A stretch of 64,000 nt of DNA, taken from Buxus sempervirens. Its lineage: Eukaryota; Streptophyta; Magnoliopsida; Buxales; Buxaceae. The notes beneath the pieces were generated by a model that worked only from the letters and a program-made list of their open reading frames with translations, searched no databases and was not told the DNA's origin. The DNA lies in the NCBI GenBank assembly GCA_947561395.2, contig OX387183.1, positions 2,613,883-2,677,882 on the forward strand, given 5' to 3'. Numbering within the stretch: the stretch's first letter is position 1; the number at the start of each line of letters is the position of its first letter. This document shows, one piece after another, positions 13,017-64,000 of this stretch. The translations under genes and the position numbers were made by a program.

Positions 13017-13287
13017 AACCGAAATCAAATTTCGGTTATTATAGTGTTATGTGTAACCGAGGAAACATTTCGGGTATGAGTAAATTGGGTTTTAACCGAA
13101 ATTAAATTTCAGTTTGTTCCAGAAAGATCTGACGAATATTTGGTTGTTGGGTTTCATCATGATTTCCGCGTGGGCGTAACAGAATGGCAACAGAAATTGC
13201 ATTTTGGTTAAACTTCTTTTTGCTGATAACCGAAATTCAATTTTGGTTATAGGTCCCTTTTAGTATAACCGAACTGTGTCTTCGGTT
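13017..13287. repeat. Dyad array of S1 (AACCGAA/TTCGGTT type)
   Basis: Six 21-bp dyads, each a 7-bp arm, 7-bp centre and 7-bp arm, start at 13017, 13055, 13094, 13189, 13228 and 13267. Linkers are 17-18 bp within two groups of three, giving a 38-39 bp period, with a longer gap between 13114 and 13189. The best dyads are AACCGAA-N7-TTCGGTT. The array lies about 200 bp upstream of the LTR TATA box. Confidence 0.9.
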
Positions 13288-13486
13288 ATACTATTTTTGC
13301 TTCAATTGAAAAATTGCGCGAGATCTCACTTATTTGCAAACATACCTGTGTCTGGGAAGTGAGAATTCTCCATTTTAGCCTCCGGAATTGATCTAATTCC
13401 ACCAATCCAAGCCATAGAGATGAGGTAGAAGGATCTAGACACATTTTTGTGCCTACCCTTGTGACTATCATACCATTGGTCTTGCC

Positions 13487-13612
13487 TATAAATAGAAGGC
13501 CCCTCCTCTTGCAAGTGGTTGAGAATTTGAAGCTTGGAAGCTCTGCAAGAAGAAGGGAACCCCTGCCGCTGCCGGATTGCTGTCTCAAGACTCTCAAGCT
13601 ACTAAGGTATAG
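13487..13612 (+). promoter_or_regulatory. S1 core promoter and 5' splice-donor-like site
   Basis: TATAAATA at 13487-13494 is followed 120 bp later by AAG/GTATAG (GT at 13607). The same TATA-to-donor spacing is seen in elements A (114 bp) and B (115 bp). Confidence 0.6.
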
Positions 13613-15084
13613 TTCTGTTTATCTTACTAGTCTTCTCCTTTACATTTCAACTCCCATCTTCTACCTTTTTGTAGTGTAAGGACTTGATTTTTTGTTTGTA
13701 GCCCCTAAACTCTTTCAAAATACCTGGGAATCCTCTCTAGCCGTAAAACATGAAGAGAGAGCCTTGGGAAAAGGAAGGTGGAAGGGATCCTTTAGGCTAG
13801 AACCTACCTTGGATGTTTTGCATATTATATTTTTATGTGCTGATTCTTGTGCTATTTGAATCTGGAGAAGTCAATATGATCCATGCTCTCAATAGCAATG
13901 GATCTTAATTTTCTCCTAGATATGTTTTTTTCACCTATACACACACAAATTTCACTATTTTCATCAAATAGGATAGATCTGGGATTTTCCATGTTCGATA
14001 TGGGAAATTTGAGATCATTGGCCTTAGAATGATTTTTAGAACTTCATGAGGTGGTTTTTCAGGATATCAAGTTGTTTTGGTTGAATCCACTGGCACACAT
14101 GCACTGATTTTGGCCTTTTATTCAAAATTCTTCAAAACAGGACAGCATCTGTTGCCTGTCTTAGAATGCTCATAACTTCATCATCCGGATGAATTTTTGA
14201 GTCATTCAAAAGACATGTGATAGATGAGTTTGTCTATTTTATTTCTGGAAATTTTCATTAATTTCTATGGAGCCAATTTTTGATACCATCTGTTGAAAGT
14301 CGGCAGGTCAGGTCAGTCCAAATTGCTGAACTTGTCACTTTGATTGAGCTCTATTTGCTCATTTTTAATTCGTTTTGAGTGATTTCAATCTCTGTGTTTT
14401 CCTTGAAGAGTCTATTTTCTATTCCAATAGGTTTCACGAGATTTTGTTTTGATTTGTGGCCTGTGAGCTTGATTGACTCAGAGTTGCTCTGTAAAAGAGT
14501 TCTGGGTTAATCTGTGATCCTCTAGGCATGTTCGGGAGGTCGCACAAGTCCCGAATGGATGGAGTTTTGTGTGAGGCCTATTTCGTTTGAAAGATGGCAC
14601 CACATACTTCATTCATGCAAGTTTTCATGAATTTATATGGAGACAAACTCCACGAATAGAGTTTCAAAGATGCCTACTCGCTACTTTTTCGGATTTACTA
14701 TAGCAGTTTTGACTGAGTGTTCCTCTCTCATTTTGAATCGTATTGAACTGAAATTTTTATTGAGTATGTTATTTTTTTTACTAGTTTTCTAATGGCTTTG
14801 GTTTCATTTGATTTGGATTTAAATTGAGTGATTTGTGGTTAATCGAAGCTTTCAAGCTCTTGTAATCTGATTTTTCCAGATTTTACCTTAGCTTGGTTTC
14901 TCTTCATTTTTTTATTTTCATTCACTCATGAAGTTCTAGAAGTGGTATATCCATGAGGAGAGTCCAAATTCATTGGACTACTGTAGACACCCCAAATTGC
15001 ACTACCAAATGAGAAAATAATAAAAACATGTAATTAGAGCTTAAAACAGGTCAAAAAGGCCTAAAAATAGAATGAACAGGCTTT

Positions 15085-15188
15085 GCCCGTATTAGCTTCA
15101 CGGGCTCATTGCGCCCGCAAATTATCTACGGACAAGCACGTCCGTAGTATCGATACGGTCCCCATTGGACCGTAATGTATTTACGGGC
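15085..15188. repeat. Dyad array in element A U3 (ACGGGC/GCCCGT type)
   Basis: 18-19 bp dyads of the form ACGGNC-N7-GNCCGT, separated by 9-bp linkers, give a period of about 28 bp. Complete units start at 15100, 15128 and 15155, with half units at 15085 (GCCCGT) and 15183 (ACGGGC). Arms vary in matched pairs, for example ACGGAC with GTCCGT and ACGGTC with GACCGT, so complementarity is kept while sequence changes. Confidence 0.9.
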
Positions 15189-15389
15189 ATTAAAGACACG
15201 TGCAAGTTTTGTCCTTCTCTCGATTTCCGAGCCTTATTTGAAGTCCAATATATCTTTAAACGAGCGGATTATGTCTTTTATTCGCTGAAGTCACCTTGGA
15301 TGGCTATGGATGGGCATCATCTCTATATTTCACTCTATCCTGAGAATCAGGATATATCCTTCTGGACCAGCCTTGCCCCTGGGTGTGTC

Positions 15390-15509
15390 TATAAATAGAG
15401 GCTCATTCCTCTAGCTAAGGGCCACGAAATTTTGAGTCCAAGGAATTCTAAGAAGCTACAAGAGAAGGAAAGGAATCCCTGCTGCTCTGCTTGCTCAATC
15501 CAGGTAAGT
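15390..15509 (+). promoter_or_regulatory. Element A core promoter and leader 5' splice site
   Basis: TATAAATAG lies at 15390-15398. The predicted transcript start is about 30 bp downstream. CAG/GTAAGT at 15501-15509 is a perfect plant 5' splice site, with GT at 15504. The stretch between the predicted start and the donor contains no ATG. The same arrangement recurs in the 3' LTR and in elements B, S1 and C. Confidence 0.7.
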
Positions 15510-16566
15510 CCCCTATCCCTTTTTATTTTCTGTCTTCAATTCTAGAAATAATAGAATCATCTCTATTGCTGTAGAATAAGGCCATATCTGTTTTTGTATT
15601 CCTAAACCTGCCTCCAAGTACCTCAAGGGTCTCTCTAGCCGTAAAACGTGAAGAGAGAACTAGGGGAAAGGGGAACAGGTGGATCCCTAGAATAGAACCC
15701 CATATCTGTTTTTTTTATAGAATAAGGCCTGTGATTGTGCTTGTGTAACCAAACCTATCTCTAAGTACCTCAAGAGTCTCTCTAGCCGTAAAACGTGAAG
15801 AGAGAACTAGGGGAAAAGAGAACAGGTGGATCCGTAGGGTAGACCCCCATGTGCTCTAATTTGTGAGATGTGGCTATTTTGAATATCCTGATCATGTTTT
15901 AATGCTTTTTATTATATATCTGAATGAATAACATGAATCTATGATGTTTATAGCATGAGATCCCCTATTTTTGCTAAAATTTGGATTTTTGCCACTTTTG
16001 CACCTACAGCACTGTTTTCGTGATTTTTGTGGTTTTAGGCTATGATCTTGGATTTATCATGATCAATATGGTAGATCTGAATCTAGAAGCCTGAAAATAA
16101 ATTCTAGGGTTTCATAAGATGTTTTTTAAATTGTTTTTCATTATTGAGATAAGACCCTACGGTCTAAATTCTCCCCTTTTGGTGTTTTTTATAAACGTGA
16201 GTCTTTTTGGTTTTGATTTTAAGATTTAATGTGAAATTTGGGCTTTATCTATGTCCTGGACTATTCAAGTTCAATTTTGAAATATTTTATAAAAATCATA
16301 TTTTTCCAGATTTCTAGAATTTTGACTTGAAGCCAAATTTTTGGACTTTTCACTTTAAATTGATTTTATTTGATTTTATCTCAATTTTATTTTGATCATG
16401 AAACCCTAGGAATGGTATGATCATATTTGAAAGTTCTGGATCAATCAGACTATTCGTATGAAAAAACCATACAATTTCATCTTTTTTTGTGATTTTTCCT
16501 GATTTTCATAGCAAGCTTTTTCCTTTAATTTAACATGAACAAATACCTGGCAACCACCTTGTGTGG

Positions 16567-16601
16567 ATGAATAAGGGTGCCTAACACCTTCCCCTGTTCA
16601 T
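16567..16601 (+). other. Conserved U5 hairpin (element A, 5' LTR copy)
   Basis: A 35-nt element with two 11-nt arms and an invariant 13-nt loop TGCCTAACACCTT. The arms are ATGAATAAGGG and CCCCTGTTCAT here, with one A-C mismatch. The 3' LTR copy (36182-36216) has ATGAATAGGGG and pairs fully. Equivalent copies are at 3723, 36529, 42556 and 60849. Confidence 0.7.
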
Positions 16602-16797
16602 AACCTAATCCCTTTACCCATCTCTGGTGATTTTTTTAGGAGGGTTATTTTTACCCTAAAAGTGCCTTTTGTGCTTATTTAATATTCTGGTGTCCATTCA
16701 CACCTAAATTGAATGGTGGCGACTCTTTGTTTAATTTAATCCCGTGTGATGATGGAGGAAATCATTAAAGATTTGATTTTTTCCCATGTCTCACAAC

Positions 16798-16815
16798 TGG
16801 CGACTCTGCTGGGGA
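16798..16815 (+). other. Element A primer-binding site
   Basis: TGGCGACTCTGCTGGGGA begins two bases after the LTR end. Element B has the identical 18-mer at 42805. This PBS type is reported for Ogre/Tat elements as complementary to an arginine tRNA; I could not confirm the tRNA here. Its first ten bases recur inside U5 at 16717-16726. Confidence 0.9.
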
Positions 16816-18071
16816 GCCGTGGATTTGAGCCTTTTTGGTGTTTGTTCATGTTTTTGATTTTTTTGATTTGCTTGCTATTTTGTGTTTTTAGCATGTCTTT
16901 GTTTTGCTTGCTGTTTGGTGTTCTTAAGCATGTTGAGTATGTTTTAAATCTGAATTATTGCTTAGGAATTCATGGGGGTAGAAACATGCTTAGTTCTGAT
17001 TCATAGGATTGTTTCTAGAAACATGCATAGGGGAGGTTTATTTTGATAAACCATGCTTATTTCTTGCTGTATTTTAATATGCATATTCTAATTTTCAGCA
17101 TGCTTTCTATGGTGTATTTTGGATATATAATATGAGCATATGTTGACATGATTTGGATGATCTTTTATGAGCATGTTTTGGGTGCTATAGGATTGCTTTA
17201 TTTACTTGTTTATTTAAAATATGCTTTCCTATTATGCCTTGGTTTGTTTACGCATGGCTGCGAAAAGAGTGGCAAGGGTTTGGGACGTTGTGAATGTGAC
17301 CTATGTTTACAATGCACTGTGCACCTTTTATTTTTTTACACGGCCTACCTATCACCTATAGGAAGTTGAACAAGAATGTGTGTAGCTTGGCGCACCGAGG
17401 TCGATACTTCGGAAAGCGAAAGTGAAAACATTCACCTTAGAACTTTGAGCTAATGATGTGATGATAATGTGGATCTGGGATTCTGGTCATCACTAGGCTT
17501 GAGTGCTAAGTTGCCATTAAGCCAAAACCCAAAACCCCTACGCTTGAAGGTGGAGTTACACGTTTTTGGCTAAATTACACAATTACGTGGGAATATGGGG
17601 TTTGTATGATTGTGGGAAGGCCGTATGCATGGCTTACAAACCAGGGCATAATGCGGATGCTATATTCAAGGTAAACAAGGTAACAAGGTAATCCTATTGT
17701 TTTGCATTATTTTCATGTCATAGGGGTGTCATGGTACCCATGGGTTTGGGATAAAATTGGTCCCAAAATATGCATATTTGTTAAAAAGTGGTGCAGCCCA
17801 TAGGAAGAGTTTCTAACTCTGTTTAAAATCAATCCTACCCAATGTTTGTACAAGAGGCAACAAAAGGGTACCAAAGTATAAGTATGGTGTCAATTTGGAG
17901 GGTACATGTACCCTCCCAAACTTGTGTTTTACAAATAGGCCAAGGTCCACTTTGGGACAGTTTAGAAGCTCTGTACTGGGTGAACCGTACGTTTGGATGA
18001 ACAATGAAAGTGATCAAACCATATAAAAACTGGAAAAATATAACAGGGTTCCGTAAAACCGCATTTAATAC
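16816..18071 (+). other. Element A leader with block conserved in element B
   Basis: AT-rich non-coding leader. About 17260-17690 is strongly similar to element B 43560-44020, although surrounding leader sequence differs. Its centre holds a 7-bp stem with a 4-nt loop (17395-17412: CCGAGGT, CGAT, ACTTCGG). In B the stem is identical and the loop is CGTG (43710-43727). Short open frames in this stretch are not conserved between A and B. Confidence 0.6.
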
Positions 18072-18187
18072 ACGGGCTGGGCTTGCCCGTATTGTTTATA
18101 CGGGCTAGGCTCGCCCGTGGACTGCCTACGGTCACGGCATGCTCGTAATTTAAATACGGGCAAGGCTGGACCGTACTGTATATACGG
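18072..18187. repeat. Dyad array in element A leader
   Basis: Four 19-bp dyads start at 18072, 18100, 18128 and 18156, with a half unit ACGG at 18184 and 9-bp linkers: an exact 28-bp period. The first two are perfect ACGGGC-N7-GCCCGT. This is the same arm type as the U3 array of this element. Confidence 0.9.
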
Positions 18188-18357
18188 TTTTCTCGGAATA
18201 TTCAACTTTAATTAGTTTTTCCCACTAAAATATTCTTTTAACCTTTAAATAATGATAAAGGGAAACAAGTTTGAATAAAATGCTTTAAAAAAAAAAAAAA
18301 AAAAAAAACAAAAAAACAAAAAAAAAAGATATTTAAAAGAAAAAAATGTGAGAGAAA

Positions 18358-18898
18358 GGCTTCTGAAAGCCTTTGAATTTCAGACTTTTTCAAAACTCTT
18401 GGGCCTCTGAAAGCCTTTGAATTTCAGATTTTTCTCAAAAATCCCTGGGCCTCTGAAAGCCTTTGAATTTCAGACTTTTTCTCAAAAAATCCCTGGGCCT
18501 CTGAAAGCCTTTGAATTTCAGAACTTTTGGGCCTCTGAAAGCCTTTGAATTTCAGACCTTTTCCTTTTGGGCCTCTGAAAGCCTTTGAATTTCAGACCTT
18601 TTCCTTTTGGGCCTCTGAAAGCCTTTGAATTTCAGAACTTTTGGGCCTCTGAAAGCCTTTGAATTTCAGACCTTTTCCTTTTGGGCCTCTGAAAGCCTTT
18701 GAATTTCAGAATTTTTGGGCCTCTGAAAGCCTTTGAATTTCAGACCTTTTCCTTTTGGGCCTCTGAAAGCCTTTGAATTTCAGTCCTTTTTCTTTTGGGC
18801 CTCTGAAAGCCTTTGAATTTCAGAACTTTTGGGCCTCTGAAAGCCTTTGAATTTCAGACCTTTTTCTTGTGGGCCTCTGAAAGCCTTTGAATTTCAGA

Positions 18899-18936
<38 letters not shown>

Positions 18937-19029
18937 GGGCTCTGAAAGCCTTTGAATTTCAGACCCTTTTCAAAAAAAAAAAAAAAAAAAAAAAACCCCC
19001 CGGACTTCTGAAAGCCTTTGAATTTCAGA
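18358..19029 (+). repeat. Leader tandem array, 16 copies of a stem-loop core
   Basis: Sixteen near-identical copies of a 21-nt core CTGAAAGCCTTTGAATTTCAG are separated by variable 12-27 nt spacers, commonly CCTTTTCCTTTTGGGCCT, with A-runs in the later spacers (18902-18932 and 18971-18996). The core with its flanks forms a 7-bp stem TCTGAAA/TTTCAGA around a 9-nt loop. A diverged related copy, GTTGGAAGCC then TTCCAAC, follows at 19051-19075. The array lies inside the predicted leader intron, just upstream of gag. Confidence 0.9.
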
Positions 19030-19094
19030 CCTTTCTCTCTTTTGTGGGACCTGTTGGAAGCCCTAGAATATTCCAACAATTCAATTCAAAATAA

Positions 19095-19137
19095 AAATAA
19101 ATAAATAAATAAATAAATAAAAAAAAAAAAAAAAAAA
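19095..19137. repeat. AAAT repeat and A-run
   Basis: Short AAAT tandem repeat followed by an A-run, upstream of the predicted gag splice acceptor. Confidence 0.85.
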
Positions 19138-19220
19138 GAAGCAAATAAAAAAAATATCCAAACTCGTGTTCACCCAGCTTGCACATAGGGATTCTTAGGC
19201 ATGTGAAGGAGATTAAATTG

Positions 19221-19254
19221 GCACTGATATTTTATCTTTATTTCTCGCCAGGTA
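19221..19254 (+). promoter_or_regulatory. Predicted 3' splice site before gag (element A)
   Basis: CTGAT, with its A 23 nt before AG, precedes a T-rich tract and CGCCAG/GTAC. The exon would begin at 19252, 53 nt before the gag ATG. Element B has the parallel arrangement at 45964-46000 with CTGAC and ATCAG/GTAC. Confidence 0.6.
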
Positions 19255-19304
19255 CTAATACACTCGCAATCATAGCTCCTGTAACCAGATCAAGAGCTCG
19301 AGCC

Positions 19305-22300
19305 ATGAATCCCATTGAAGATGAAGTTGATGCTCCTCATCCTGATGTCGTTCTACTCCAAGAACAAGTGGCAGGACTAGCCCGAATGCTAGAGAACATA
19401 CTGTCAGTACAGGCCCAACAAGTGCAGGCCCAACAAATGCAGGCCCAGAACCAGACATCCACATCCAACCCTGCACCTCCACCCCAAGTCAATGTTCCAC
19501 CTCCAGTGCAACCAACTCCTGAACCTGTCTATGAACCCACCCTTGAACCTATACTGACCAGGGATGAGACAGCTGAATCAAACAAGGTTAAGGAAAAGGA
19601 AAGGATAAGGGAAGAGGTTGAAAGAAAGTTCATGCATAAGCTAGAATTGATCCAAGATGAACTTAGGGCAGTCAAAGGGGTAAACAACTTTGGAGGCACC
19701 AATTTTGAAGACCTGTGCCTATACCCCAATGTTAACCTGCCGGCTAAGTTTAAGTGTCCAGACTTGGACAAGTATGATGGCACTGGTTGCCCCATGAGCC
19801 ACCTAAAGTTGTATTGCGGTGCCCTATGCCAGTTCGGGCAGGATGAGGGCATCTTGATCCAACTTTTCCAAAGGAGCCTGACAGGAACCGCATTAAGATG
19901 GTTCGCCACTCTGGACCATGGGAAGATCAAAAGATGGAAGGACCTAGCCGATGCCTTCCTAGCTCAATACCGGTTCAATTCAGAGATCATGCCAGATAGG
20001 TACGACGTCATGAGAATGAGCAAAGGAAGGGAAGAAACTGTAAGGCAATATGCCAAGAGGTGGAGGGAGACAGCCTCCCAGGTCAGACCACCCATGCTAG
20101 AACAGGAAATGATTTCTACCTTCATAAGCACTTTGGGTCAACCATTCTACAGCCACTTGGTGGGTCAGACCACCACTAATTTTGCAGCTTTGGTTCAGGT
20201 GGCTGACCGAATTGAGGATGGAATAAGGTCAGGTAAGATAATTGACCACTCTGCCATGGTTAGCCAGCAGGACCCCAACCTAAAGAAAGGAAGCGGGACA
20301 AAAAAGAATGGGAACAAGAAGGAGGGTGAGGTAAACATGGTACAGCCACCATCCGGCCCTAACAAGCCCATACAAATCAACGTACCTGCTCATTTTCCTA
20401 CTCCATCTCCACCTACCCAGGCCCCTATGAGGGTTAATGTTCCAGCAGCATCTTCAGACCAAAAAAGGGTTTTTACCAAAGAGGAAAAGGATGCCTATTT
20501 TGCAGCAAGGAGAAATAGGGTTTTTACCCCTATTCCAATGACTCCCTCTCAATTGCTGCCCACTTTATTGCAAGGAGGGTATATCACCTTAAGAGAACCT
20601 AATCCGAATGCATCTAAAGGGAGAAATTTTGACCCCTCCACCACTTGTGATTACCATATGGGTGCACCTGGGCACCCTACAGACAAGTGCTGGCCTTTGA
20701 AACATGCCATTCAGGATTTACTAGACCAGAATACCCTGTCTTTCAATACAGGAGCTTCCAATCCCCCAAGAACAGATATTGGACAAAACCCACTGCCCCA
20801 ACATCACGGGGCAGGCCCATCTAATGTCATAGGAGTCGTCTCTTCTGACAAAATAACCTTTGACCCATCTCAATTAATTGCTCCCATAGGGACAACGGTC
20901 AAAGTATATTTTGACAGAAAAAGTGAAGGTAAAGAAATAAATATGATTTCAAAGGGGAATGATAGTGCTACAAAGAACATTAGCTCATCTTTGGACCGGG
21001 TCTCATCCCTCATGGCCCAGATGAACATTGCCAACCCACCTTTGGTCGTTAATTATAATCCATCCACTTTTACTCCGCCCATTCAGTCTAAGCCACCATT
21101 GGTCATAAATTGTGACCCCCTTAGTGCATCAGTCACTTCTGCAAACCCACAACCAAAACAACTTCCTCCATTGGTTGTTAATGTTCCCATTACTCAGACT
21201 TCCATTGCCAATTCCAAACTTCCCCCATTGGTGGTAAACGTCCCTAAGCCTTCCTACATTGAATCGGCTGTACCATGGAACTACAGTGAAGCATTCACCA
21301 CTACATGCCCTGCAGTTGAAAGCAAGGAAGAAGTAAACCTTATGATGAGGTCAGGAAAGTGTGTAGGGGTGGAAGAAAAACAGAAAGAAACAGAGAAGGA
21401 TAAAGAAGAAGGAAAAAATAAAGGAAAGGCCAAGGTAGGGGAAGATACCCCCCAGGTAGTTGACAGTGAGGCTGCTGACCTCATTAAGGTAATAAAAAAG
21501 AGTGAGTTCAATGTCATCGAACAGTTGAACAAAGTCCCTGCCCAGATCTCAATACTGGGCCTATTATTAAACTCAGAAAAACATAGGGACTCCTTGTTAA
21601 GAATACTCCAGGGGGCCCATGTACCTAAAAACATTGAACCAGACCAACTAGGCCGGATGGTTGGGCAAATATTATCTCATAATGTTATAACCTTTTCTGA
21701 AACGGAAATTAGTCCAGCAGGATACCATCATGTGGATCCATTGCACATTGCTGTGCTCAGTAAGGGCTGCATGATAGCCCGGGTCTTGATTGATAATGGG
21801 TCAGCCCTCAATGTCTGCCCATTAGTAACCTTTGTTAAGCTCAATCTGGAGCGAAACAAAATAAAACAAAATGGAAGAATTATAAGAGCATTTGACAGCT
21901 CTAAGACACACTCCCTAGGGGAGGTTGAACTGCCGGTCACAATTGGACCGTATATTTTCAACATCACATTTGAAGTGATGGATATACCTGCGGCTTTCAA
22001 CCTACTCCTAGGAAGGCCGTGGATTCATACAGCTAGGGCCATACCATCTACCCTCCACCAAAGAGTCAAGTATATTAGAGGGCAAAAGGTGATTACCGTT
22101 CTGGCCGAAAATTTGGTTCCCCCCATGTGGTCCCCTGATGTACCCTGTATTAACACGGAAATGACAGCAGATAAGATGGCATTTCACTCTTTTCAGTTTG
22201 AAGCTGTGAATTATATACCTGGGGGGTATCAACAAAAAGAAGGAAAATTGACCTGTGCTGAAAAAATGGTCAAAAATGTATTAGAAAAGTACCATTTTCA

Positions 22301-29251: not shown

Positions 29252-29341
29252 GGAAGCGCCAAAGAAGCCAAGGAAAGCGAGAAAAGACGTGCTCAGGGAG
29301 TTTTTCAATTAATAAAAGTGTCACAATGATGTTCCCTAGGA

Positions 29342-29352
29342 GTTTATATAGA
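29342..29352 (-). promoter_or_regulatory. TATA box of antisense gene Y1
   Basis: The minus strand reads CTATATAAACT, about 95 bp upstream of the chosen ATG and about 25 bp downstream (in the Y1 sense) of the dyad array at 29375-29502. Confidence 0.6.
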
Positions 29353-29374
29353 AAAAATCGTAAGACAGTAAATT

Positions 29375-46000: not shown

Positions 46001-46070
46001 ACATTTACTCTCGACCCAGGTGCACTTATTTGCAGTCATTGCTCCCGTGACCAGATCCAAAGCAAGAGCC

Positions 46071-51951: not shown

Positions 51952-51964
51952 ACATTAAAATTTC

Positions 51965-52244
51965 TATAAATAGCAAACCAGCAGCTCATTTCCGGGGTTG
52001 GGCTTTTCTTGGCTGTCTTGAGCTTCCTCCCTCCACTCTTCTCCCACACGAATCCCCACCCCTTCAACCCCTTTTGGCCCCCATACCATCCCAAGCCCTT
52101 CCCCCCTTCTCCTTCTCCTCTCTATCCCCACTGAAAGAAGAAGGACTTGAGCGGCTGTTGGTGTTCCAAGGAGGCCTCCAGGAGCTGTACCACCCCCAAG
52201 GCATACCACCACCTTGCACAAGAGGTCAAGGACCTCAGGTATCA
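51965..52244 (+). promoter_or_regulatory. LTR C core promoter and splice-donor-like site
   Basis: TATAAATA at 51965-51972. CAG/GTATCA with GT at 52239, a longer TATA-to-donor distance (274 bp) than in the other LTRs. Confidence 0.5.
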
Positions 52245-52998
52245 CTCCTCATCACTTTATCTTCCACATATATTAAATGTAGATTTTTCGGTGAGATTTC
52301 CTTTTTTTAGTTTTCTTGTCCAGCATGGCTTCCCTTTAGTATGGTTTAAGCATGTACTCTTCGTCATTCGCATGGCATGAAGTCACCACCAGCATGAGGG
52401 TCACGTAGGCTTCGTTAAGGAAGCCTGGGATTCTTATCCAAGCATGTCCTAATCCCTTTTAGCTACGGTGCATAGATGTATATTAAGTGGTTTCCAAAGG
52501 GAGCATGTCCCATCTTATGATCGAATGTACCCCCATAAATCCCCCTCCTCTTTCCCTTCTCCGAAGGTTTCACGATGGGCCACCAGCCTAGGCCCACACC
52601 TAGCCGGATACCTTCACTTTGCTGGGATGTCTTGTTGATTTTCACATAGGATGCATAAGAGCATGTGTATGCATTTTTGTATGTGGGAATGTGTTTTTTT
52701 TGTTTTGTTTGTCATCTTAACATGTTGACTCATGCATGCAGTCGTGAGAGCCTGGAGACCGAATGGGGATACATTGGTCCCCATTCCCATGGCTGGCTTG
52801 ACCCAGGATGACAGGGAGGGCAGCAGGCCCCCCATTGGCTTTGCCAAAAAGTCCAAGGAGAGAGGCCAAAGGTGGCTCCTCCCACAATCTGAACATACGT
52901 GGGCTCATCCAGGAGCCCACAAGACCCTTAACATGCCCCTGGAACCCCCTGGGATCAGTCCCAAAAGGCCAAAACCCAAAAAGGCCAATTCCAGAGTG

Positions 52999-53097
52999 AT
53001 CCGGATACTCAGACCGGATCACCTATGGCCTCTGTGTATCCGAATACACTGACCGGATCACCCTCAGACCCTGCATATCCGGCCTGAGTTGCCGGAT
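52999..53097. repeat. Second dyad cluster of LTR C
   Basis: Three 21-bp dyads at 52999, 53038 and 53077 with exact 18-bp linkers. The last, ATCCGGC-N7-GCCGGAT, is identical to the unit at 51931 in all 21 bases. Confidence 0.9.
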
Positions 53098-56000
53098 ACG
53101 CACAGTAGCATGTCTTTTACATATCTTGTTCCTTTGCCGAATTTTGAAGTGATTTGTGTACAAACCAATGAACCAGCTGGGTTTCCGGGCCACCCGGAAA
53201 CCCAAGAAGGGACTTGGACCAACCGGTCCAACCAGGCACACTTGTGGGCCTTCCAACGGGGCCCACCAAGCCCAATGAACCAAATGCATGCTAATTAAAC
53301 AACCTAAGTAAAATGAACCAATTTAAGCGGACGGGCCAAGCCCAATGCGGCCCGCCCGAACCTTGTGATGTGTATGGATGCATAAAATGCCTGGTTTGGC
53401 CGAGACCATGGGCTAGGGCCTGTCGGGCCCACCAAAGCCCGCTAACCGAACCAAGTTAGGGTAAAAACCCTAAGCTTTGAAGCACCGGGCTTTCAAAGCC
53501 CGAAATCTGGATCATGGGCCCCAAGCCCAGTGACCAGCCCACTTTGGCAAGACTAAAATGAGATAACAGAAAATCACTTGGCCACCAAGTGGGCCTGCCT
53601 AAGGGGCCCACAAACCAATCCGGCCCACCACCTGCATGAAAATAACTCAATAATCAAACTGGAACCCCCATGTAAAATCAATACATTAACCAAAGCCCCC
53701 AGGGCCTCCTAGGATAGGCCGAGGCCCACAAGGGCACACGGGCCAACTCAAGCCCATTCAGGACACCGGTTGGGCCTTCCAACGGGGCCCACCCAATCAG
53801 ACTCAGAAAACCCTAAAATGAAAGATAAAATCAACTAAAGGGACCCACACCAACTCAGGCGGTCCCGCCAAGACTCAATCCGAATTACATGCGGGATTAG
53901 GAACCGGGTGAGAACCAAAGCGAGAAAGCTGACTCAAAGTAGGGAACCCACGGGACCCGTCATCCGACGGGGTGGACTGGGGTGTCTACGGACTTCCCCA
54001 GACCACAACCGAGAACCGACTCAGAATCTCAAGCCGCAGACCAAAAGTCTTAAATAGACAAGATTAGGCACCCAGGTGTCCGCCTGCACCCCATCAGGCG
54101 GTGGCGACTCCGAATTACCCCGTGCCGCGTTTCCCACGCGCGCACAGATTCAATACATAAACCGGTTCATAGCACAGCTCACTGCTATCTGTGAACCAAT
54201 TTTCAAACTTTTGAGGAAAGACAACCCTACGGTCTGGAATGAGGACTGCCAGCAGGCATTTGACACAATAAAGAGGTATTTGCTGAACCCACCTGTGCTA
54301 GTGCCACCAAGTCCAGGAAGACCACTGATCCTGTACTTGTCAGTGTTGGAAACATCGATGGGATGTGTCTTGGGGCAGCATGATGAGACTGGTAGAAAAG
54401 AAAGGGCAATTTACTATCTGAGTAAAAAATTCACAGAATATGAAGCTAAGTACTCATCATTGGAGAAGACTTGCTGTGCTCTAGTGTGGGCCACTCAGAG
54501 GCTAAGGCATTACTTCCTTAGTCACTCCACACTATTGATATCCCGGATGGACCCGCTGAAATATTTATTTGAGAAACCGGCACTGACTGGCAGAACGGCT
54601 AAGTGGCAACTACTACTGTCCGAGTTTGACCTCACATACATCACCCAGAAGGCGATCAAAGGTCAAGCCATAGCTGATCACCTGGCTGCACATCCTCTGC
54701 CAGAATATCAACCCTTGAAGACCAACTTCCCAGATGAGGCAATTCTGTACACTAAAGAGGAGGACAGTGAGAGTTCTTGGCAGATGTTCTTTGATGGGGC
54801 CGCCAATATGAATGGGAACGGAATCGGGGCAGTCTTGGTTAAACCAGATGGTTCACACATCCCGATTGCAGTAAAGCTGAGATTCCAGTGCACCAATAAC
54901 ATAGCAGAATACGAGGCATGCATAATTGGATTGCAAGCAGCCATGGATCATGGAGTAGAGGAACTTGACGTATACGGGGATTCGAGTCTTATCATCTTCC
55001 AAACAACTGGTGAGTGGAAAACCAAGGATCACAAATTGATCCCCTATCACCAGTATTTGGAAGAAATAAGCACAAATTTCACTCGAATTTCCTTCAACTA
55101 TATGCCAAGGGCCAAGAATCAGTTTGCGGATGCTCTAGCAACCTTGGCTTCAATGGTCAGCATATCAAAAGGAGTAGACATCAGACCACTAGAAATTGAC
55201 GTCCGAGATGAACCGGCTTACTGTCTCGTTCTAGAGGGAGCACCAGAAGAAGAAACACCATGGTTTCAAGATATCAAAAATTTCTTGAATAATCGGAGTT
55301 TACCAGAAAATGCCACTGCTACTGAGAAGAGGACAATACAGAGATTGGCTGGTCAATTTCTGCTAAGTGGTGGACATGTGTACAAGAGGTCACATAACGA
55401 CATTCTGCTAAGATGCGTTGCCAAGGCTGAATCGGAAAGGCTGATTGAGACTGTACATGGAGGAGTCTGTGGGCCCCATATGAGTGGGCACATGCTGGCT
55501 AAGAAGATCCTGAGGCTGGGATATTACTGGACGACCATGGAGCACGATTGCTGTGTACATGTCAGGAGGTGCCATCAATGCCAAATATATGCAGATAACA
55601 AGCATGCACCCCCAGGCGAGCTGCACAACATGACATCACCCTGGCCCTTCTCTATGTGGGGCATAGATGTTATTGGCATGATCTCACCTAAGGCATCGAA
55701 CAGACACAGATTCATCCTGGTGGCGATTGACTATTTCACTAAGTGGGTAGAAGCAGCTTCATATGCGAACATCACAAGCAACCATGTCATTAAATTTTTG
55801 AAGCACAATATCATTTGTCGCTATGGACTGCCAAGTGCCATAGTATCAGACAATGCTTCAAATATTAAGAACAAGGACATGAAGAAAATGTGTGAGCAGT
55901 TTCAGATCACCCACCATAAGTCAGCTCCGTACAGGCCAACGATGAATGGGGCAGTAGAAGCAGTAAACAAGAACATAAAGAAAATCATTCAGAAGATGGT

Positions 56001-56508
56001 AGTGAGCTACAAGGATTGGCATGAAATGCTGCCACTTGCTCTGCATGCATACAGAACCTCGATCCGGACCTCAACTGGGGCAACCCCGTACTCCCTAGTC
56101 TATGGGATGGAAGCAGTCTTGCCCGTGGAAGTGGAGATCCCATCACTCCGAGTGCTCATGGAAGCAGAACTAGAAGAAGCCGAATGGGTCCAGTCGAGAC
56201 ATGATCAACTTAACCTGATAGAAGAAAAGCGGTTGAAAGCGCTTTGCCATGGACAGTTGTACCAGAAGAGAATGGCCCGGGCTTACAATAAGAAAGTGAG
56301 GCCCAGAACTTTCCAAGAAGAAAACTTAGTGCTAAAGAAAATTCTACCATTTTTGGAAGACCCCCGTGGTAAGTTCAGGCCCAATTGGGAAGGCCCATAT
56401 GTCGTCAAGAAAGTCCTATCAGGGGGAGCACTCATCTTAGCAGAAATGGATGGGTCAGATTTTCCTGAGCCCATTAACTCTGATGCGGTAAAAAGGTATT
56501 TCCCTTGA

Positions 56509-57446
56509 GTGAATATTTCTAGGAAATGATCCGAGGCCATTTTTCTTTATTTCCTTCAAAAATTTTAATCCCTAGTCTAGCCAAGTTGAGCCGGTTCGTT
56601 TCTTTGATAAACCCAAACCGGATTTACAGTCTTAAATTGGGGCAAAACAAATTGGGGCAAAGTAAGGAAAGAAAAAGAAAAAGAGAGGAAAAGCAATGGA
56701 AATGGCAAATGAAAGCCAAGTGTGAAAAAAAAATGCAAAAAATGCAATTTGGGGGAAAAGGGTTAAATTCATCATGACTGTAAGTCCGGTTGACCTATTT
56801 CCACACTTGGAAAATTTTGGGCCTTTAATACCCTTTCTTTCATAAGCTGAGCCTAGCCTTTGTTTCGTCCTATTTTTAAGCCCTCGGTGATCTTAGCTTG
56901 TTCATTCAAATATCAGAGTAAGATGGGTGATGACGGAATGCAGGAGCCGGCCCTAGTGAAAACCGTAACTGGCGCTAGGGGCAATATTGGCAAAAAGGCA
57001 AAAAGAAAAAAATAAGAAAAATGAAAGAAAATCAGAGGTTGAGTTGATCATGGGGATCTGAGCCTTAAGAAAAGTTGGCATGAGCAGAATGGGGCAGTTT
57101 TGGCAGTTGGGGATGACTCTAAAGGTCCTAAGATGGACGGTTCTGATCCCTCAGTATTTTCTGGACTACCCTTTTCATTATTTAACCTGGTTCTAATTCC
57201 TTTAATTATAGGTGATTAAGTGCATGGACCAAATTTCAAAAAATACAAAAAAAATATAAAAAGGAAAAATTATACTTTGGCCAGTGATGAGAAATCAAAT
57301 ACTTTTCATAAAACTTTTGTTTTTACAAGCATCTGAGCATTCTGAGGCCAATAATATAAAAACTTTATTTTGAATTAAATCCTTTGTATTTCCACTATTG
57401 GAGTTCAATTTTGTACAAAGGTATGAAAAATGTGCAGGAAATAAAG
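56509..57446 (+). other. Element B region after pol
   Basis: Non-coding, similar to element A 26519-27526 (shared TAGGAAATGATC..GAGGCCAT and ATGACTGTAAGTCC phrases). No gene seen. Confidence 0.6.
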
Positions 57447-58260
57447 CTAGTCTCCTAGCCGCTCCTCAAGCTCCCGAATCCGAGCTGCCTGAGCTGCAAT
57501 GACTCCTGAAGCCCCCTCTGCAGCGGGATCACTCATGAAGGAAATGACCTCATCTGAAAGGGCCTGCTTAATCCGCATACTCCTAAGGCTAGCCAAAGTA
57601 TCCTGGTACTTCTGCCGGATCATACGGACCTCAAAGAAACGAGCCTGCCTCTGCTCCTCCAGCTTCTCTTCCACGGCAATACGGCGTGAGATCTGCTCCT
57701 CAAGCTGCCTCTCCAGATAAGCGCCCTGTATCCTGAGCTCCTGGGCCTCCCGTATCCATATCTGCTGAAGCCGCTTATGAGAAGCCCGCTCAGACTCTAG
57801 AATGTCCTCATAAGAGATAATCCTTCACATGGGCTTCTGAGAAGACTGGACCATGCATAAAGCGGACATAGGACCACTCCTTCATCAACCAGGCATTCAG
57901 CTCCATAGAAAGGGGCCCAAGACGATCCTCATATCCACATGGTATGATAATCCCCTGGGTCGCTCGGAACTGACGAAGGACCCGCAGAGGAAGATAAAGC
58001 ACTGCATGTCTCAGGCCAGCCAGAATCAGAAAGTTGCGGTCTCGGAAGCTAATCACTGTCTCCGCATTAGGCTGATAAGTACCAGGCCATCTCACTTGGT
58101 CATCCTGAAGCGAGCCCAAGAAAGTGAACCAGCCCTGTTTGCCCCCTGGAATATCGGGGCACCCCCTGTTGCTCATCAACAAGGGGACTTTTAGACTCGG
58201 GAAGAAGTGTCGATTAATCTCTTCAACCTGGCTCAAATGATCAAGTAACCAAAGCTGCAA
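57447..58260 (-). pseudogene. Remnant of antisense gene Y1 in element B
   Basis: It matches Y1 exon 2 of element A: LWLLDHLSQVEEI, then GCPDIPGGKQGWFTFLG, then a C-terminal coiled coil with ARIRELEE. The exon acceptor at 58260 is conserved, and an A/T-rich intron-like stretch follows. A deletion of roughly 90 bp near 57810-57820 removes a proline-rich linker and breaks the frame. Exon 1, the promoter and its dyad array are absent, so it cannot be expressed from its own start. Confidence 0.8.
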
Positions 58261-58820
58261 AGGAGAAGGGATATTTCAGTATATGGTAAAAAAAAAAAAA
58301 ACAGGGAAAAATAGAGAAAAAGAAGAAAAGAAAAAGAAGAAAAAAAATAGAAAAAAAAGAGAAAAGAAAAGAAAAAAAAGATAAGAAGAAGAAAAGGAAA
58401 AAAAGAAAAAAGCAAACTTGTGCTATAATTCTTACTATTTTCTCAAAATCCTATTTTTGTCTTGAAATCCACCTCACAGCCACGAGAGCTCTGTGGAATT
58501 TAGGACAACTTTGGGAAATGTGCCTGGTCAAAAGGATGATATCCACTCAATTTTCAACTTGATTTGACAAAAAATCAGTTTTTCAAAAATCCTATTTTTG
58601 GGCTTAAAATCCACTTCATAGCCACGAGAGCTCAGTGGAATTTAAGAACTCTTGGAGAGATGCCCCCCTTAAAGTGAGGGCTTTTTGGCAAATCTCCACT
58701 CAAAAATTGTTTTCTACAGAAATTGAATTGAACCGAGCAAATCATGCTCAAGGGAATGCAATTTGGGCTTGTATACTCTTTGCAGCTCACTGCTTCGCAG
58801 TTCCCGCCAAGAGGGGCAGT
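58261..58820 (+). other. Element B end of internal region with polypurine tract
   Basis: A/G-rich low-complexity stretch (58286-58410, the former Y1 intron). Then two related segments of about 160 bp, about 58441-58530 and 58584-58690, both containing AGCCACGAGAGCTC. AAGAGGGG at 58809-58816 followed by CAGT abuts the 3' LTR: the polypurine tract. Confidence 0.65.
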
Positions 58821-61095
58821 TGTAGACACCCCAAATTGCACAAACAATCATCAAAAATCATTATCTCCTGGAAAGCCAGCACAGAATTTGAAGAAAATAA
58901 ACTTTTACCTGTATCCGGATACTCAATCCGGATACAAGTACCCTTTCCCGTATCCGGATACTCATACCGGATACATGTGAGCCTTAGTGTATCCGAGACC
59001 ATGTACCGGATACCTTAAGGCCCTTTTTTATCCGGTCTGATATACCGGATACCTTAAGTTTGCTCAAAATTAGGGTTTTCCGAGAGCTTTTCACTTTTAC
59101 CATCATGTCCCTCATTAAATGAGGGGAAATCGCGGAAATAACCTTAGGGTTTAGGTTGGGGGGGTTCTAGACATTAAGTTGTGTCTACCAATGACCTTAG
59201 TCCTTGCCTATAAATAGGAGCCTCCTCCTTGAGCAAATGGCACACAACTCTTGTTTTGAATTCTCGCAAAGAAGAACTCCAAGAGAAGAAGAAAACCGCT
59301 GTGGAATCGCCTCCAGAACTCAGGTAAGCCTCAACTTTTCTTTTTATTTTCTGTCTTTACATTCCTAGATCTAGATCTCTTCTTCTACCTTTCTGTAGTG
59401 TAAAGCCTTGTTTGTATGTGTGGAAATCCTTCCCCGGCTCAAAGTATCTCAAGACTCCCCTAGCCGTAAAACGTGAAGGCGGATCTAGGAGAAACGAGAC
59501 TGGGGATTGACCCTAGTGCTAGAACCTATGTAGCATAAGGCCTTTTTGATTGATTGTAAACCGTTCCATATTCAAAGTACTCTTGATTATCTTAAAGAGA
59601 ACAGAGGGAAACGATAATGGAACGGAACCCTAGGCTATGCTAGAACCTATTTTGTTGAATCTATATGCATGTGTATTAATCTTGCTTGGTTTTTCACTTT
59701 TGCACACATATTACACTTTTTTGGTGAATAGGCTCACATTCGGGGATTTATTACATTCATTGTGATAAATCTCCAATAAATGGCCTCAATCAAATTCTGG
59801 AGTGTTTTAAAATGTTTTTCAAAGGTTTTGGATTCATCTCACACAGATCACACACATTTTATCAATTTTCGGATTTGGTTTTCTTCAAAAGTGGCTTAGC
59901 TTGACGGCACCTGTACCCTTACTTCGGACGCCCATAACTTCATCATCCGGATGAATTTGGGGGCGATTCCAGAACCATGGGAAAGGTGAGGCTGTCTAGT
60001 TTATGTCCACCAAATTTCACAAATTTCTATCTAGCGGATTTTTGACACCTCTCTGTCGAAGTTAAGTGGACAGTTCAGGTCCAAGTACAGAACTTATCAC
60101 TTCGACGGACCGCCATGTGTTCGTTTTAAGTCCGATTCGAGTGATTTTTATTTCTGAGTACTCCTTTATGAGTCTATTTTCAAATCCAGTTGGTCTCATA
60201 ATTTTTGGATCCCATTTAAATTATTGGTAGCCGATTTACTCAGAACTATTCATTTGTACTTTTCTGGGTAAATCTGTGATCTTCAGGGCCTGTTCGGGAG
60301 ACCACCCAAGGCACATCCGAAGGGATTTTTGTATGAGGCTAGTTTCTGTTGAAAGATGGCCATACAGACTTCAATCACACCAAATTTCGTGGATTTTTAT
60401 GTTGTGGATTGTTCTAGACAATTTTCCAAAGTTGCCCACTTATCACTTTTAAAAATCCCTAGCAGCAACTTCAAAGGAGCATAACTCCTAGGATTTTTAT
60501 CGAAATGAAGTGAAATTTTTCATGAGACTCTTATTTACCCTAATCTTTCAAATGGATTTGGTTTGGTTCAATTTAAAATTGGATTTGAATGATTTTAAGG
60601 CAAATGGCATACTTTTTACCAAATTTTCCGGATTTGATTCAACTTGGTTTTTTAGCAACTTGTGCTTTGATTTCCATCTTTTGAGATATTCCAGAAATGA
60701 TATTGACATAAGAGAGGATCTAAAATCCATTTAGATCTTCATGTGGAGATATCATACATTTGACCTTTTTCAAGGTTTCTCATGATTTTTAGCAAGCTTT
60801 CTTACTTTGTTTTTGCATGAATATACACTTGGCAACCACTTCGTGTGGATGAATGGGGGTGCCTAACACCTTCCCCCGTTCATAATCTAATCCCTTTACC
60901 CATCTCTGGATTTGATTTTCAAGTAGGATTATTTTATCCTATAATGCTTCTTTTTTCACTTTTTGCTTATTTTGAACTCTTTGGTGTCCATTCTCACCCC
61001 AAAATCATGAATGGTGGCGACTCTCCCAATTTTGCGTTGAGCCCGTGTGTTGACGGAGGGATGATCACTCCGGTGATTTTTTCCCATGTCTCACA
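58821..61095 (+). repeat. Element B 3' LTR
   Basis: 2275 bp, with complete dyad array 58913-59050, TATA 59209-59216, hairpin 60849-60883 and PBS-like decamer 61015-61024. It keeps the 13-bp and 17-bp stretches missing from the 5' LTR. Confidence 0.95.
58913..59050. repeat. Dyad array in element B 3' U3, complete
   Basis: Four 21-bp dyads start at 58913, 58952, 58991 and 59030 with exact 18-bp linkers: 138 bp at a 39-bp period. Arms are ATCCGGA/TCCGGAT, ATCCGGA/ACCGGAT, ATCCGAG/ACCGGAT and ATCCGGT/ACCGGAT. Confidence 0.92.
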
Positions 61096-62324
61096 GACCC
61101 AATTGTCAGGTCTGATCATGCCCTATTATGCCTGAGCCTTAAAGGGAAAAATCACAAGAACCACAAAGTGTTCCATTTTGAAAAATGTTGGATTGAAGAT
61201 CCTAATTGTGGGCAAATCATTTCGGATAGCTGGTACAATAGTGGTGGTAATTTGCATAGGAAAATGATTCATCTTTGGGGGGAGCCTGACCGATTGGAGT
61301 AGGAATAATGTGGGAGACATTAATAAGAGAGTGATGGTTAAGTATGAAGAGTTGAAAGAAATTCAAAAACACATGGAAGTGAATGATGACCCTCACATGT
61401 TAAAATTAGAGAGATGCCCACAAAAATTATATTGAGGCCCTCAAAGCCCAAGAATCCTTTTGGCATCAAAGATCTAGAATCCAATGGTTACATGAAGGGG
61501 ACCTGAACACTAAAATTTTCCATCTATCAACTATCAATAGGATACACAGAAATAAGATTGTATCTATCAGGAATGAAAACAATGAGGACATTGTAGAGCC
61601 TAAGGAAATAAAGAACACTTTTGTTGATTATTTCTTTGGTATTTACATATTTGATAATAAAGAAAAAAACTTTTCTATCCTGAACCAAATCCCCACTGCT
61701 ATAACTGAGCTGGATAATAGGTTTCTTATGAAACCTGTTATAGATACTAAAATATGGGATATTGTGAGAATTCTGGGAGCCTTAAAAATTTTGGGACCTG
61801 ATGGTTTCCAAGGAATATTCTATCAGGAATATTGGGAAACCATCAAAAGTGAGGTATGTGCCCAAGTTAAAGACTTCTTCAATAGTGGTTCTTTTAATAG
61901 AAATTTGAACTTTACCTATATTGTCCTAATTCCATAGACTGACAACCCCCGGAATGTCAATGAATATATGCCTATCAATCTTTTTAATTTCTATTATAAA
62001 ATTATATCTAGACTGATTGTTGATAGGATGAGGCCCTTCATGACTAGAATCATTTACCCTTACCAAAGTGCCTTTGTCCCTGGGAGAAATATTCAGGAAA
62101 ATATTCTTGCTGCCCATGAGCTGTACCATATGATTAAAGGGAAAAAAAATGGGCTGTTTGCTGCCAAATTTGATCTTGCTAAAGCCTATGTTAGGCTTGA
62201 TTGGAAATTCATAAAAAGTATTCTTCTTGGTTTTGGATTTGAGCAAAAATTTGTTAATCTTATCATGTTTTGTATTTCTTCTGTCTCTTATAGTATCATG
62301 ATAAATGGTAAACCTTGTGGTTTG

Positions 62325-63621
62325 TGTGCGCACCCGATTTTAGGCCGCACGCGAGGTGCATGCAAAGTGATGCGCGCCTCGGGACTGTTTGGAGTCTCCA
62401 CTGCCTGAGAGGTGCATGCAGACACAAAGGGGCACCTATCCGGGACTAATTATTCTTGCCTACGGCTTAATAGAGATCTGAGTAAATTCTCGGTTACGTC
62501 TAGGGAAGTCTGAAGACACTCTAGCCCGCCCCGTCGGTTGAAGGGTCCCATGGGTCTCCCTGGTTTGAGTCAACTTAATTATCACACAATTCCTAGGCCA
62601 GCATGCACACTTATTTGATCTGGTTGGGTGTGGGTCCCCTTTTTATTTGATTTTTATCTTTTTATCAATTAATGTAGTGGGTCTGGTATGGGCCCTGTTG
62701 GAAGGCCCAGTGGAATCCATGTTGGGCTTAAGTTAAGCCCAAGGCCCAATTCAGGTTATTGGGTAACCCTGATTGGATTTGGCTATTTGGTTTAAAGGTT
62801 GATTAAATATTTACAAAATTAGTGAGTTGAAGTTTTTAAGGCCCAATGGGCTTGGATTTGGCCCATTGGAAATTTAATCAAGTGGCCTTGGGCCCATTTG
62901 TTGAAAACAGGCCCTAGTTGGGCTGGACGGGATATGGGCCCCATTGGAGGGCCCACGGAGCCTTGGTGGGCCTGTTGGGCCCACGATCTCAAATATGGGC
63001 CTGGAAAATTCCAAGAAGCCTAATTGGTCGGGTCAAGTTCAATCGGGTCGGATTTGGTCCAACCAGGTCCAAAAAAAGATGATTTTTAAGCTATTCATTA
63101 ACTTGCTCGTATTTACTATACGGGCTGGGCTGAATCGTAAATGTAATGGGGGTTAGGCCTGCCCGCATATTAAATACGGGCAAGCCTGAACCGTACTTCA
63201 AATACGGTTTTCGCCCGAATTCGCATTTTTGCCGAAATTTTGGCCGGAACTGATTCGTCGGTCTCTTTTCCCCGTCCACCGACTTCTGCAGGTGTTTTCT
63301 ACCACCTCCAAATGGTTCAAAACCCTTTCTCTTGGCTCAAATATCCACTTTTTCGGAGTCCCGTCAAGAAAAGATCTCATCTTTTCATACTGCGCCTAAT
63401 CCATTCGAAAACCTGCATGCGTGGGAAGTCAAGAAGGGAAAGAGGGGAAGAATTACGGGGTAAATTAAGATCTAAAGAGGGCCGGACCCCTCTTTTAAGG
63501 TAGAATAATCATCTCTTCATAAAAGGATTAGTTCGAAAAAAATGCCATCTTGTGACACTTTAGATTTATGTGACATCTCTCTCTTCCTGTCCTTAAGTAT
63601 GTGAGCTCCTTTAACCGAAGG
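62325..63621 (-). mobile_element. LTR D, partial, C-like family in reverse orientation
   Basis: The left edge TGTGCGCACCCG truncates the LINE. Read in reverse it is similar to the end of LTR C: an altered hairpin region (CTGCCTG/CATGCAG at about 62400-62420), then CTCGGTT..TCTRGGGAAGTC and CCCCGTCGG near 62500-62540, and reversed GGGCCC/AAGCCC phrases at 62690-62990. It therefore lies in minus orientation with its 3' end near 62325. Its other end is cut by LTR E at 63622. It carries an ACGG-type dyad array (63106-63207). Confidence 0.7.
63106..63207. repeat. Dyad array in LTR D (ACGGGC type)
   Basis: Dyads at 63120, 63148 and 63176, with half units at 63106 and 63204 and 9-bp linkers: a 28-bp period. 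One unit (63148) has lost its ACGG arm. The arm type matches element A, although the surrounding LTR is C-like. Confidence 0.82.
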
Positions 63622-64000
63622 TGTAGACACCCCAAATTGCACTAAAAATGAGAAAATAATTGAAAATATTAATTGGGATTTGAAACAGGTAAAAAAAAGT
63701 GTAAAATCTAGCCAAACTGGTCATGACCGTATTTTGTTTACGGTCTGGTCATACCTGCAGTTGATATACGGTCACGATGTGCCCGTATTAATAATACGGG
63801 CAGGGTGCGACCGTAATATATATACGGGCACGGGGGTCTTTGTGCGAATTTTACCTTTTTGATTTTTGAGCCTTATTGCACCCAAATATATCTCTGGGAT
63901 ATGCGAATCCTTTTATTTATCCATTCGAATCTCTTATTATCCTATTTGACAAAGGATTGGCATTATCCTTGTGTTTAACTCAATCTGAAACTCTATCTTG
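63622..64000 (+). mobile_element. LTR E, A-like family, cut by window end
   Basis: It starts TGTAGACACCCCAAATTGCA like A and B. The following sequence (AATGAGAAAATAATT, then GAGCCTTATT and ATATATCT) resembles element A U3. The right end is outside the window, so the target duplication cannot be checked. It interrupts LTR D. Confidence 0.8.
63725..63829. repeat. Dyad array in LTR E (ACGG type)
   Basis: Dyads at 63740, 63768 and 63796, with half units at 63725 (GACCGT) and 63824 (ACGGGC) and 9-bp linkers: an exact 28-bp period as in element A, with different centres. Confidence 0.88.

Follow-up and report, generated by a model that had tools for sequence, protein, structure and literature searches.

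The 64-kb window analysed here (Buxus sempervirens, contig OX387183.1, positions 2,613,883 to 2,677,882) is made up of nested plant long terminal repeat (LTR) retrotransposons, several of them large and Tat/Ogre-like members of the Ty3 group, and within these elements stand arrays of a short spaced inverted repeat, or dyad, which are the subject of this work. The elements that carry the arrays are as follows (TSD, target-site duplication):

12917..14981, plus strand: S1, left part of an older LTR; begins TGTAGACAC; split by the inserted element A
14982..36412, plus strand: element A, a Tat/Ogre-like Ty3 retrotransposon inside S1; TSD ACTAC
40558..61095, plus strand: element B, Tat/Ogre-like; TSD GACCC
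51001..54146, plus strand: solo LTR C, inserted into pol of element B; TSD GATTC
63622 to beyond the window end: LTR X

The segment 13638-14982 of S1 is homologous to 2252-3614, and the homology resumes past A at 36413-36733. The LTRs of A (14982-16795 and 34595-36412) are 98.6% identical, those of B (40558-42802 and 58821-61095) 97.1%. Pfam places the pol domains of A in the order RVT_1, RT_RNaseH, RVT_3 and rve within 22880-26518, with the integrase downstream of reverse transcriptase and RNase H. This is the Ty3 order, which separates Ty3 from Ty1/copia elements. TGGCGACTCTGCTGGGGA follows both 5' LTRs (A and B) and is a putative tRNA-Arg primer binding site. In A, the gag-pro open reading frame (ORF) carries a G-patch domain and the plant mobile domain (PMD; PF10536) is found twice, at 27527-29308 and 31443-32345, both antisense and downstream of pol (Pfam); the stop-to-stop ORFs 19149-22931 and 22880-26518 overlap. 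An intron between the gag-pro and RT-INT ORFs is one trait of the Tat/Ogre lineage, as is a tRNA-Arg primer binding site. The second RNase H between RH and integrase is a criterion for Tat/Ogre elements, and so is an additional ORF encoding a plant mobile domain, which 57% of Ogre elements reportedly have (PMC6317226). By its domain content, judged on criteria from PMC6317226 and PMC9289625, element A fits the Tat lineage and is Ogre-like.

Thirteen arrays were found, where an initial annotation of the window had counted twelve without naming each; the total includes 34135-34238:

13016..13288: type III, S1; two runs of three dyads, 3 of 6 intact
15085..15188: type I, unique 3' region (U3) of the A 5' LTR; 4 dyads
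18057..18189: type I, array D, in the A leader ahead of gag; five dyads, exact cores in four
29373..29504: type I, array E, immediately upstream of the antisense gene PMD1; five dyads, exact cores in four
34135..34238: type I, array F, upstream (minus strand) of the second antisense region; 4 dyads
34698..34801: type I, U3 of the A 3' LTR; duplicate of 15085-15188
40648..40776: type II, U3 of the B 5' LTR; 3 dyads and a shortened first dyad
44170..44311: type II, array Dp, in the B leader; four dyads with a 39-bp step
51708..51953: type II, C; runs of 2 and 3 dyads; TATA box at 51965, about 12 bp beyond
52997..53099: type II, second array in C; 3 dyads
58911..59052: type II, U3 of the B 3' LTR; 4 dyads
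63105..63209: type I, in an F-related segment of opposite orientation; three dyads, with decayed ones in the same step
63725..63829: type I, U3 of LTR X; 3 dyads and one decayed

A single rule describes all of them, a 21-bp dyad NNCCGNN-N7-NNCGGNN, or CCG-N11-CGG. It occurs 51 times in the window (43 without the two 3' LTR copies), whereas 200 dinucleotide shuffles average 2.07 occurrences and never exceed 6. Triplets of dyads within 120 bp number 18, with none in the shuffles, while 16 pairs at 27/28 bp and 14 at 38/39 bp have no counterpart in any of the 200, and the spaced-dyad arrays with N7 centres and periods of about 28 or 39 bp, as initially annotated, are thus real. With the 3' LTR copies excluded, no other of the 64 x 60 trinucleotide/spacing inverted pairs is as enriched as CCG at spacing 11. 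Among CCG/CGG pairs scanned at spacings 0-44, the 51 at N11 are followed by 28, 17 and 16 at 37, 39 and 24 bp, which we read as a by-product of the array steps and of overlapping CCGG, and the remaining spacings have 0-10 occurrences each. The arrays, together 1,893 bp, hold 47 of the 51 dyads; the four outside them correspond to the background level.

Pairing type I half-sites at 11-17 bp, with no register assumed beforehand, gave the unit GNCCGTA-N7(AT-rich)-TACGGNC, with a CCG-to-CGG distance of 14 bp in 24/24 cases. For the alternative TACGGNC-N7-GNCCGTA, 15 of 18 pairs have a CGG-to-CCG distance of 14 bp and three have 13 bp, and the centre has an AT fraction of 0.45 (18 pairs) as opposed to 0.76 (23 pairs) in the GNCCGTA-first register. 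Each of the six non-redundant type I arrays has a paired series that opens and closes with a whole CCG..CGG dyad, and single-mismatch look-alikes of the half-site at 18049, 29364 and 63213 lie outside these series, unpaired. The 6+7+6 arrangement with a 9-bp linker first proposed for type I therefore stood in the wrong register, its "linker" being the dyad centre. The type II unit is GTATCCGG-N9-CCGGATAC and the type III unit TAACCGAA-N7-TTCGGTTA; all three types are 7+7+7, an organisation previously assigned to types II and III alone, and the 18-bp linker given for both of these is exact for type II, becomes 17-18 bp in type III and is 6-7 bp in type I. Types I to III are a single unit differing in half-site and linker, in which the CCG/CGG core is common to all arms and its neighbours are family-specific (columns over 48, 32 and 12 half-sites).

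Within runs the step is 39 bp in 13/13 type II cases (B counted in both LTRs), 38-39 bp in S1, and 27, 28 or 56 bp in type I, the last where one unit has decayed; gaps of 104 bp in the first set of C and 95 bp in S1, each of which divides an array into two runs, are left out of these counts. At 10.5 bp per turn, 28 and 39 bp each exceed whole helical turns by about two thirds of a turn, so that successive dyads keep nearly the same relative face, an arithmetic regularity that is suggestive only. CpG reaches 7.5 per 100 bp inside arrays versus 1.8 elsewhere. The earlier statement that every arm has a CpG fails in S1: of its 12 half-sites, 4 no longer have one, CG having changed to TG or CA in three of them and to AG in the fourth. 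Rfam at its gathering thresholds gave no matches.

Each element uses one type of array: A has type I in U3, D, E and F, B has type II in U3 and leader, C uses type II and S1 type III. Arrays D and Dp occupy corresponding sites, between a conserved leader block and gag, with different types. Six of six LTRs beginning with the S1 terminal motif (four of them independent) have the array starting 90-103 bp into the LTR, unlike LTR C with its offset of 707 bp. A TATA box lies downstream of the array in S1, A, B and C, while X runs off the window before that point. On the minus strand of A, array E is followed by a TATA-like box and PMD1, and a second antisense coding region is also present:

29344..29350, minus strand: TATA-like box between array E and PMD1
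27527..29308, minus strand: PMD1, antisense ORF of A (plant mobile domain / DUF7745; Pfam)
29719..32345, minus strand: second antisense coding region of A, made up of three ORFs, of which 31443-32345 has the plant mobile domain

The box is 22 bp from array E, and TATAWAW would be met within 60 bp by chance with a probability of about 0.04. The three ORFs of the second region may form one gene, and array F lies about 1.8 kb from the ORF with the plant mobile domain. Downstream of F, on the minus strand, lies sequence that matches the stretch downstream of the 63105 array (score 45 versus a mean of 22.6, reached by none of 300 single-base shuffles), whereas the scores of the other three direction pairings were reached by 21, 159 and 282 of 300.

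PMD1 looks like a real gene under purifying selection: against its partial copy in B, the ratio of nonsynonymous to synonymous divergence (dN/dS) is 0.115 over 269 codons at a synonymous divergence (dS) of 1.14, compared with 0.40-2.99 in the five other frames, a control that covers the second of two pieces. Among 8000 candidates scored, two Nicotiana proteins are homologues of PMD1; residues 295-593 used alone as query found none, and no solved structure matched at E 0.1 or better. The predicted structure, a single-chain model uninformative on dimers, has a mean predicted local distance difference test (pLDDT) score of 39.6, with a moderately confident helix at residues ~491-550 (block means 66-81). 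A poly-F stretch in PMD1 (28409-28560, minus strand) is mostly absent from the two Nicotiana relatives and is probably an intron read through.

How the dyads have changed bears on what they are for. Joint change of the two arms, on which the initial annotation had leaned, was compared with re-dealt arms for types I and II; these counts, like the half-site columns, omit the A 3' LTR copy and the duplicates between the two B LTRs, including the altered-arm unit at 58989. Type I shows no excess of complementary positions, neither in the inner register used earlier (103/126 versus 102.2 expected, P=0.44) nor in the corrected, outer one (136/168 versus 134.3, P=0.33), and RNA covariation in this type is not supported. 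The pairs GTCCGT/ACGGAC and GACCGT/ACGGTC offered as examples do exist, but in one array only (15127-15174, repeated in the other LTR), and concern the base next to CCG. A comparison of the U3 regions of A and X, omitting the first 18 bp of the LTR, found the CCGTA/TACGG core identical at 38/40 positions, whereas the base adjoining the core is identical at 3/8, the centre at 15/28, other array bases at 11/28 and U3 outside the array at 121/197 (core versus everything else, Fisher P=5e-7). As repeats can steer an alignment, the cores were hidden from the aligner in a control, again giving 38/40 versus 149-150/261 elsewhere. The dyad unit is moreover kept in both A and B at a dS of 1.1-1.5, near synonymous saturation (pol: dN/dS 0.026 over 766 codons, dS 1.47). 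Constraint on half-site and spacing argues for protein-DNA contact rather than a stem, and the lack of covariation in type I is what would be expected if each half-site were held to a protein consensus and not to its partner. Selection for a symmetric, repeated protein on DNA, as first proposed, is thus the best-supported explanation, through the kept core, the turnover of its neighbours and the persistence of the geometry, while arm co-change lends it no support from type I and little from type II.

We suggest that the arrays are probably cis-regulatory: a dimeric protein would bind them, and they would form an upstream control element common to these Tat/Ogre-like retrotransposons. Each 21-bp unit would present inverted half-sites with a CCG core, 14 bp apart, to a symmetric dimer, and evenly stepped runs, two to five units long, would let dimers stack along the DNA; one factor could then drive, or keep open, the U3, the leader and the two antisense PMD promoters jointly. 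The factor would be a protein, dimeric when bound, and would activate rather than repress; by analogy with VANDAL/VANC, discussed below, the types may differ through co-change of factor and site. Candidate binders are the antisense PMD proteins, whose helical C-terminus, weakly predicted for PMD1, could dimerise; a dimeric host factor, for instance of the LBD family, is another. Host PMD relatives MAIN and MAIL1 affect gene expression and the silencing of transposable elements (PMC7156037), and a motif called DOWN has been tied to host plant-mobile-domain proteins.

Several observations weigh against this interpretation. The claimed joint change of arms finds weak support in type II (125/144 complementary positions versus 118.3, P=0.007 uncorrected, 16 dyads), and the core-conservation test is a single pair of U3s. 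No TATA box was seen at array F and no clear core promoter adjoins the leader arrays D and Dp. Since residues 1-294 of PMD1 have no match in B, the presence of an array at that site in B cannot be seen. Arrays D and 63105, as well as that of the B 3' LTR and the second of C, are alike beyond their half-sites; arrays have probably been copied from slot to slot, which would account for some of the uniformity within elements. Related plant DNA did not emerge when the pol protein and a pol alignment were compared with viral contigs and genome contigs, and the proposal draws on the sequence of one window. Arrays D and Dp also have no alignable flanks immediately around them.

Perfect or near-perfect inverted repeats might instead act as RNA, folding in transcripts into hairpins (7-bp stem, 7-nt loop) for small-RNA production or packaging, and LTR palindromes of maize Sireviruses are reportedly linked to small interfering RNA responses. 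Hairpins would not need the fixed steps between dyads, however, and array E stands upstream of a minus-strand promoter; since type I lacks compensatory change whichever register is used and type II has little, we consider this improbable. Passive tandem duplication of a palindromic seed, with no function, would agree with the likeness of some arrays beyond their half-sites and with the other tandem repeats held in the leaders, but it leaves unexplained why cores are kept while the rest of the array diverges, why the unit is retained in elements near synonymous saturation and why the series are flush with whole dyads, and it appears very improbable indeed. The high CpG density of the arrays would suit landing sites of host silencing that do not serve the element, as would the fate of the lost CpGs in S1, three of the four having become TG or CA; such decay is nevertheless expected of any methylated CpG, and keeping targets for silencing would presumably bring the element no gain, which makes this highly unlikely.

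The remaining alternatives concern the identity of the factor. As a sub-case of the binding-array proposal, it is quite possible, if not what we would predict, that the dimer is a host transcription factor (LBD/LOB-type, or MYB) whose sites were captured by the elements, the types reflecting different factors. ZmLBD2 reportedly binds inverted repeats of GCGGCG and its coiled-coil motif was tested for dimerisation (PMC9612921), and cis-boxes for host stress factors have been described in plant LTRs (PMC2829016); by this analogy LBD proteins are a literature lead. The three half-site types, however, have one core and one half-site distance (14 bp) in common, and where elements differ in type they do so in every slot at once, so that one evolving factor fits better than several unrelated host factors. 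Carried to its limit, that idea would make the element a self-contained regulon, in which an antisense PMD protein, dimerising through its C-terminal helix, binds the CCG-N11-CGG arrays of its own element's promoters and activates or un-silences them, factor and half-site changing together while the 14-bp geometry stays fixed. We regard this as unlikely; if true, it would give retrotransposons an equivalent of VANC and of retroviral trans-activators.

The closest parallel to the arrays comes from the Sireviruses, whose Ty1/copia LTRs contain palindromic CGG-CCG motifs that form CpG islands ahead of the TATA box, additional copies lying upstream of ENV (PMC2829016). Shared with the arrays here are the palindromic form, the CGG-CCG core, the high copy number in the part of U3 that precedes the TATA box, CpG richness and element-specific arms; the core is present in 12 of 13 listed Sirevirus motifs, Tnd-1 lacking it, and the citrus motif AATCCGG..CCGGATT resembles the type II arms (PMC2829016). 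A second cluster upstream of an additional gene is likewise common to both (here array E, PMD1 and the TATA-like box), with the difference that the gene is ENV in Sireviruses and an antisense PMD gene here. By domain order element A is Ty3, unlike the Ty1/copia Sireviruses. On our reading of Table 3 of PMC2829016, the Sirevirus form is CGG-N4..6-CCG, with inward-pointing half-sites 7-9 bp apart; in the window this compact palindrome is not the enriched form (N4, N5 and N6 occur 4, 3 and 8 times, within the range of 1-9 occurrences found outside the arrays across spacings), whereas CCG-N11-CGG is. The available sections of PMC2829016 report no fixed step such as the 28 or 39 bp found here, and state that the motif is absent from classic Ty1/copia elements; Ty3 elements are not covered in them. 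Sirevirus arrays are therefore a known precedent in another retrotransposon group, and by this comparison the spacing rule and the type of element look new.

VANDALs are DNA transposons, whereas the elements here are LTR retrotransposons. In both, short motifs are densely arrayed in the non-coding sequence of a plant transposable element and differ between related families, for which VANDAL is a well-studied parallel; the VANDAL motifs, of which YAGTATTAY lies in one orientation, are recognised by VANC, an anti-silencing protein that the element itself encodes (PMC5735166, PMC10398659). A VANC motif array was rejected for this window, which has four scattered YAGTATTAY, two per strand, and no VANC homologue is among the Pfam matches of six ORFs of A, no dedicated search having been made. 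The antisense PMD proteins are, by analogy only, candidates for VANC-like array binders. Retand is a Tat-lineage element with family-specific tandem repeats and, between pol and the 3' LTR, antisense TRP28 genes that were suggested to be DNA-binding regulators (PMC11963269). The antisense ORFs here, in contrast, are PMD/DUF7745, the dyad arrays also occur in the LTR, and dyads of this kind are not mentioned for Retand in the available text of PMC11963269. A literature search limited to open-licence full texts turned up no description of CCG-N11-CGG arrays for Tat/Ogre elements.

Gal4-type sites, CGG-N11-CCG, are half-site pairs bound by dimers across an 11-bp gap. They share that gap with the dyads here, with the half-sites reversed, and to our knowledge Gal4-type zinc-cluster proteins do not occur in plants.

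The role of the extra and antisense genes in Tat-lineage elements has been described as unknown (PMC11963269, PMC6317226). A fixed-geometry site common to the LTR and to the upstream regions of antisense genes provides a bait for finding the factor, and CCG-N11-CGG at 28- or 39-bp steps is a simple sequence test for any plant genome. Taken with the Sireviruses, the arrays would suggest that unrelated plant retrotransposons reached CGG/CCG dyad arrays independently.

The leaders that hold D and Dp have further features. The block at 17252-17691 in A and 43563-44013 in B is 81% identical with no long ORF in common, which is notable because synonymous sites in pol are near saturation, and is perhaps a packaging or structured leader signal. 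Just 3' of the leader arrays lie tandem repeats that are unlike each other at corresponding leader positions (18358-19034 in A, units of ~34-48 bp; 44639-45857 in B, units of 76 bp). Solo LTR C has a 148-bp tandem duplication (51123-51489) upstream of its arrays.

A two-unit type II pattern had no match among viral contigs. The pol protein of A has at least 6,514 relatives (8,000 candidates scored); among the 120 matches listed, identity is at most 66% and those with a named organism are mostly from eudicots (Cicer, Durio, Glycine, Hibiscus and others). Two of the predicted proteins, P0003 (Cicer arietinum) and P0028 (Vicia villosa), list DUF7745 (PF24924) together with Ty3 pol domains, which suggests that the DUF7745 gene travels with related elements in other plants. 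Another, P0033, is a plant-like Ty3 pol protein whose 8.3-kb contig is filed under Salmonella enterica; an assembly contaminated with plant DNA is the most likely source.

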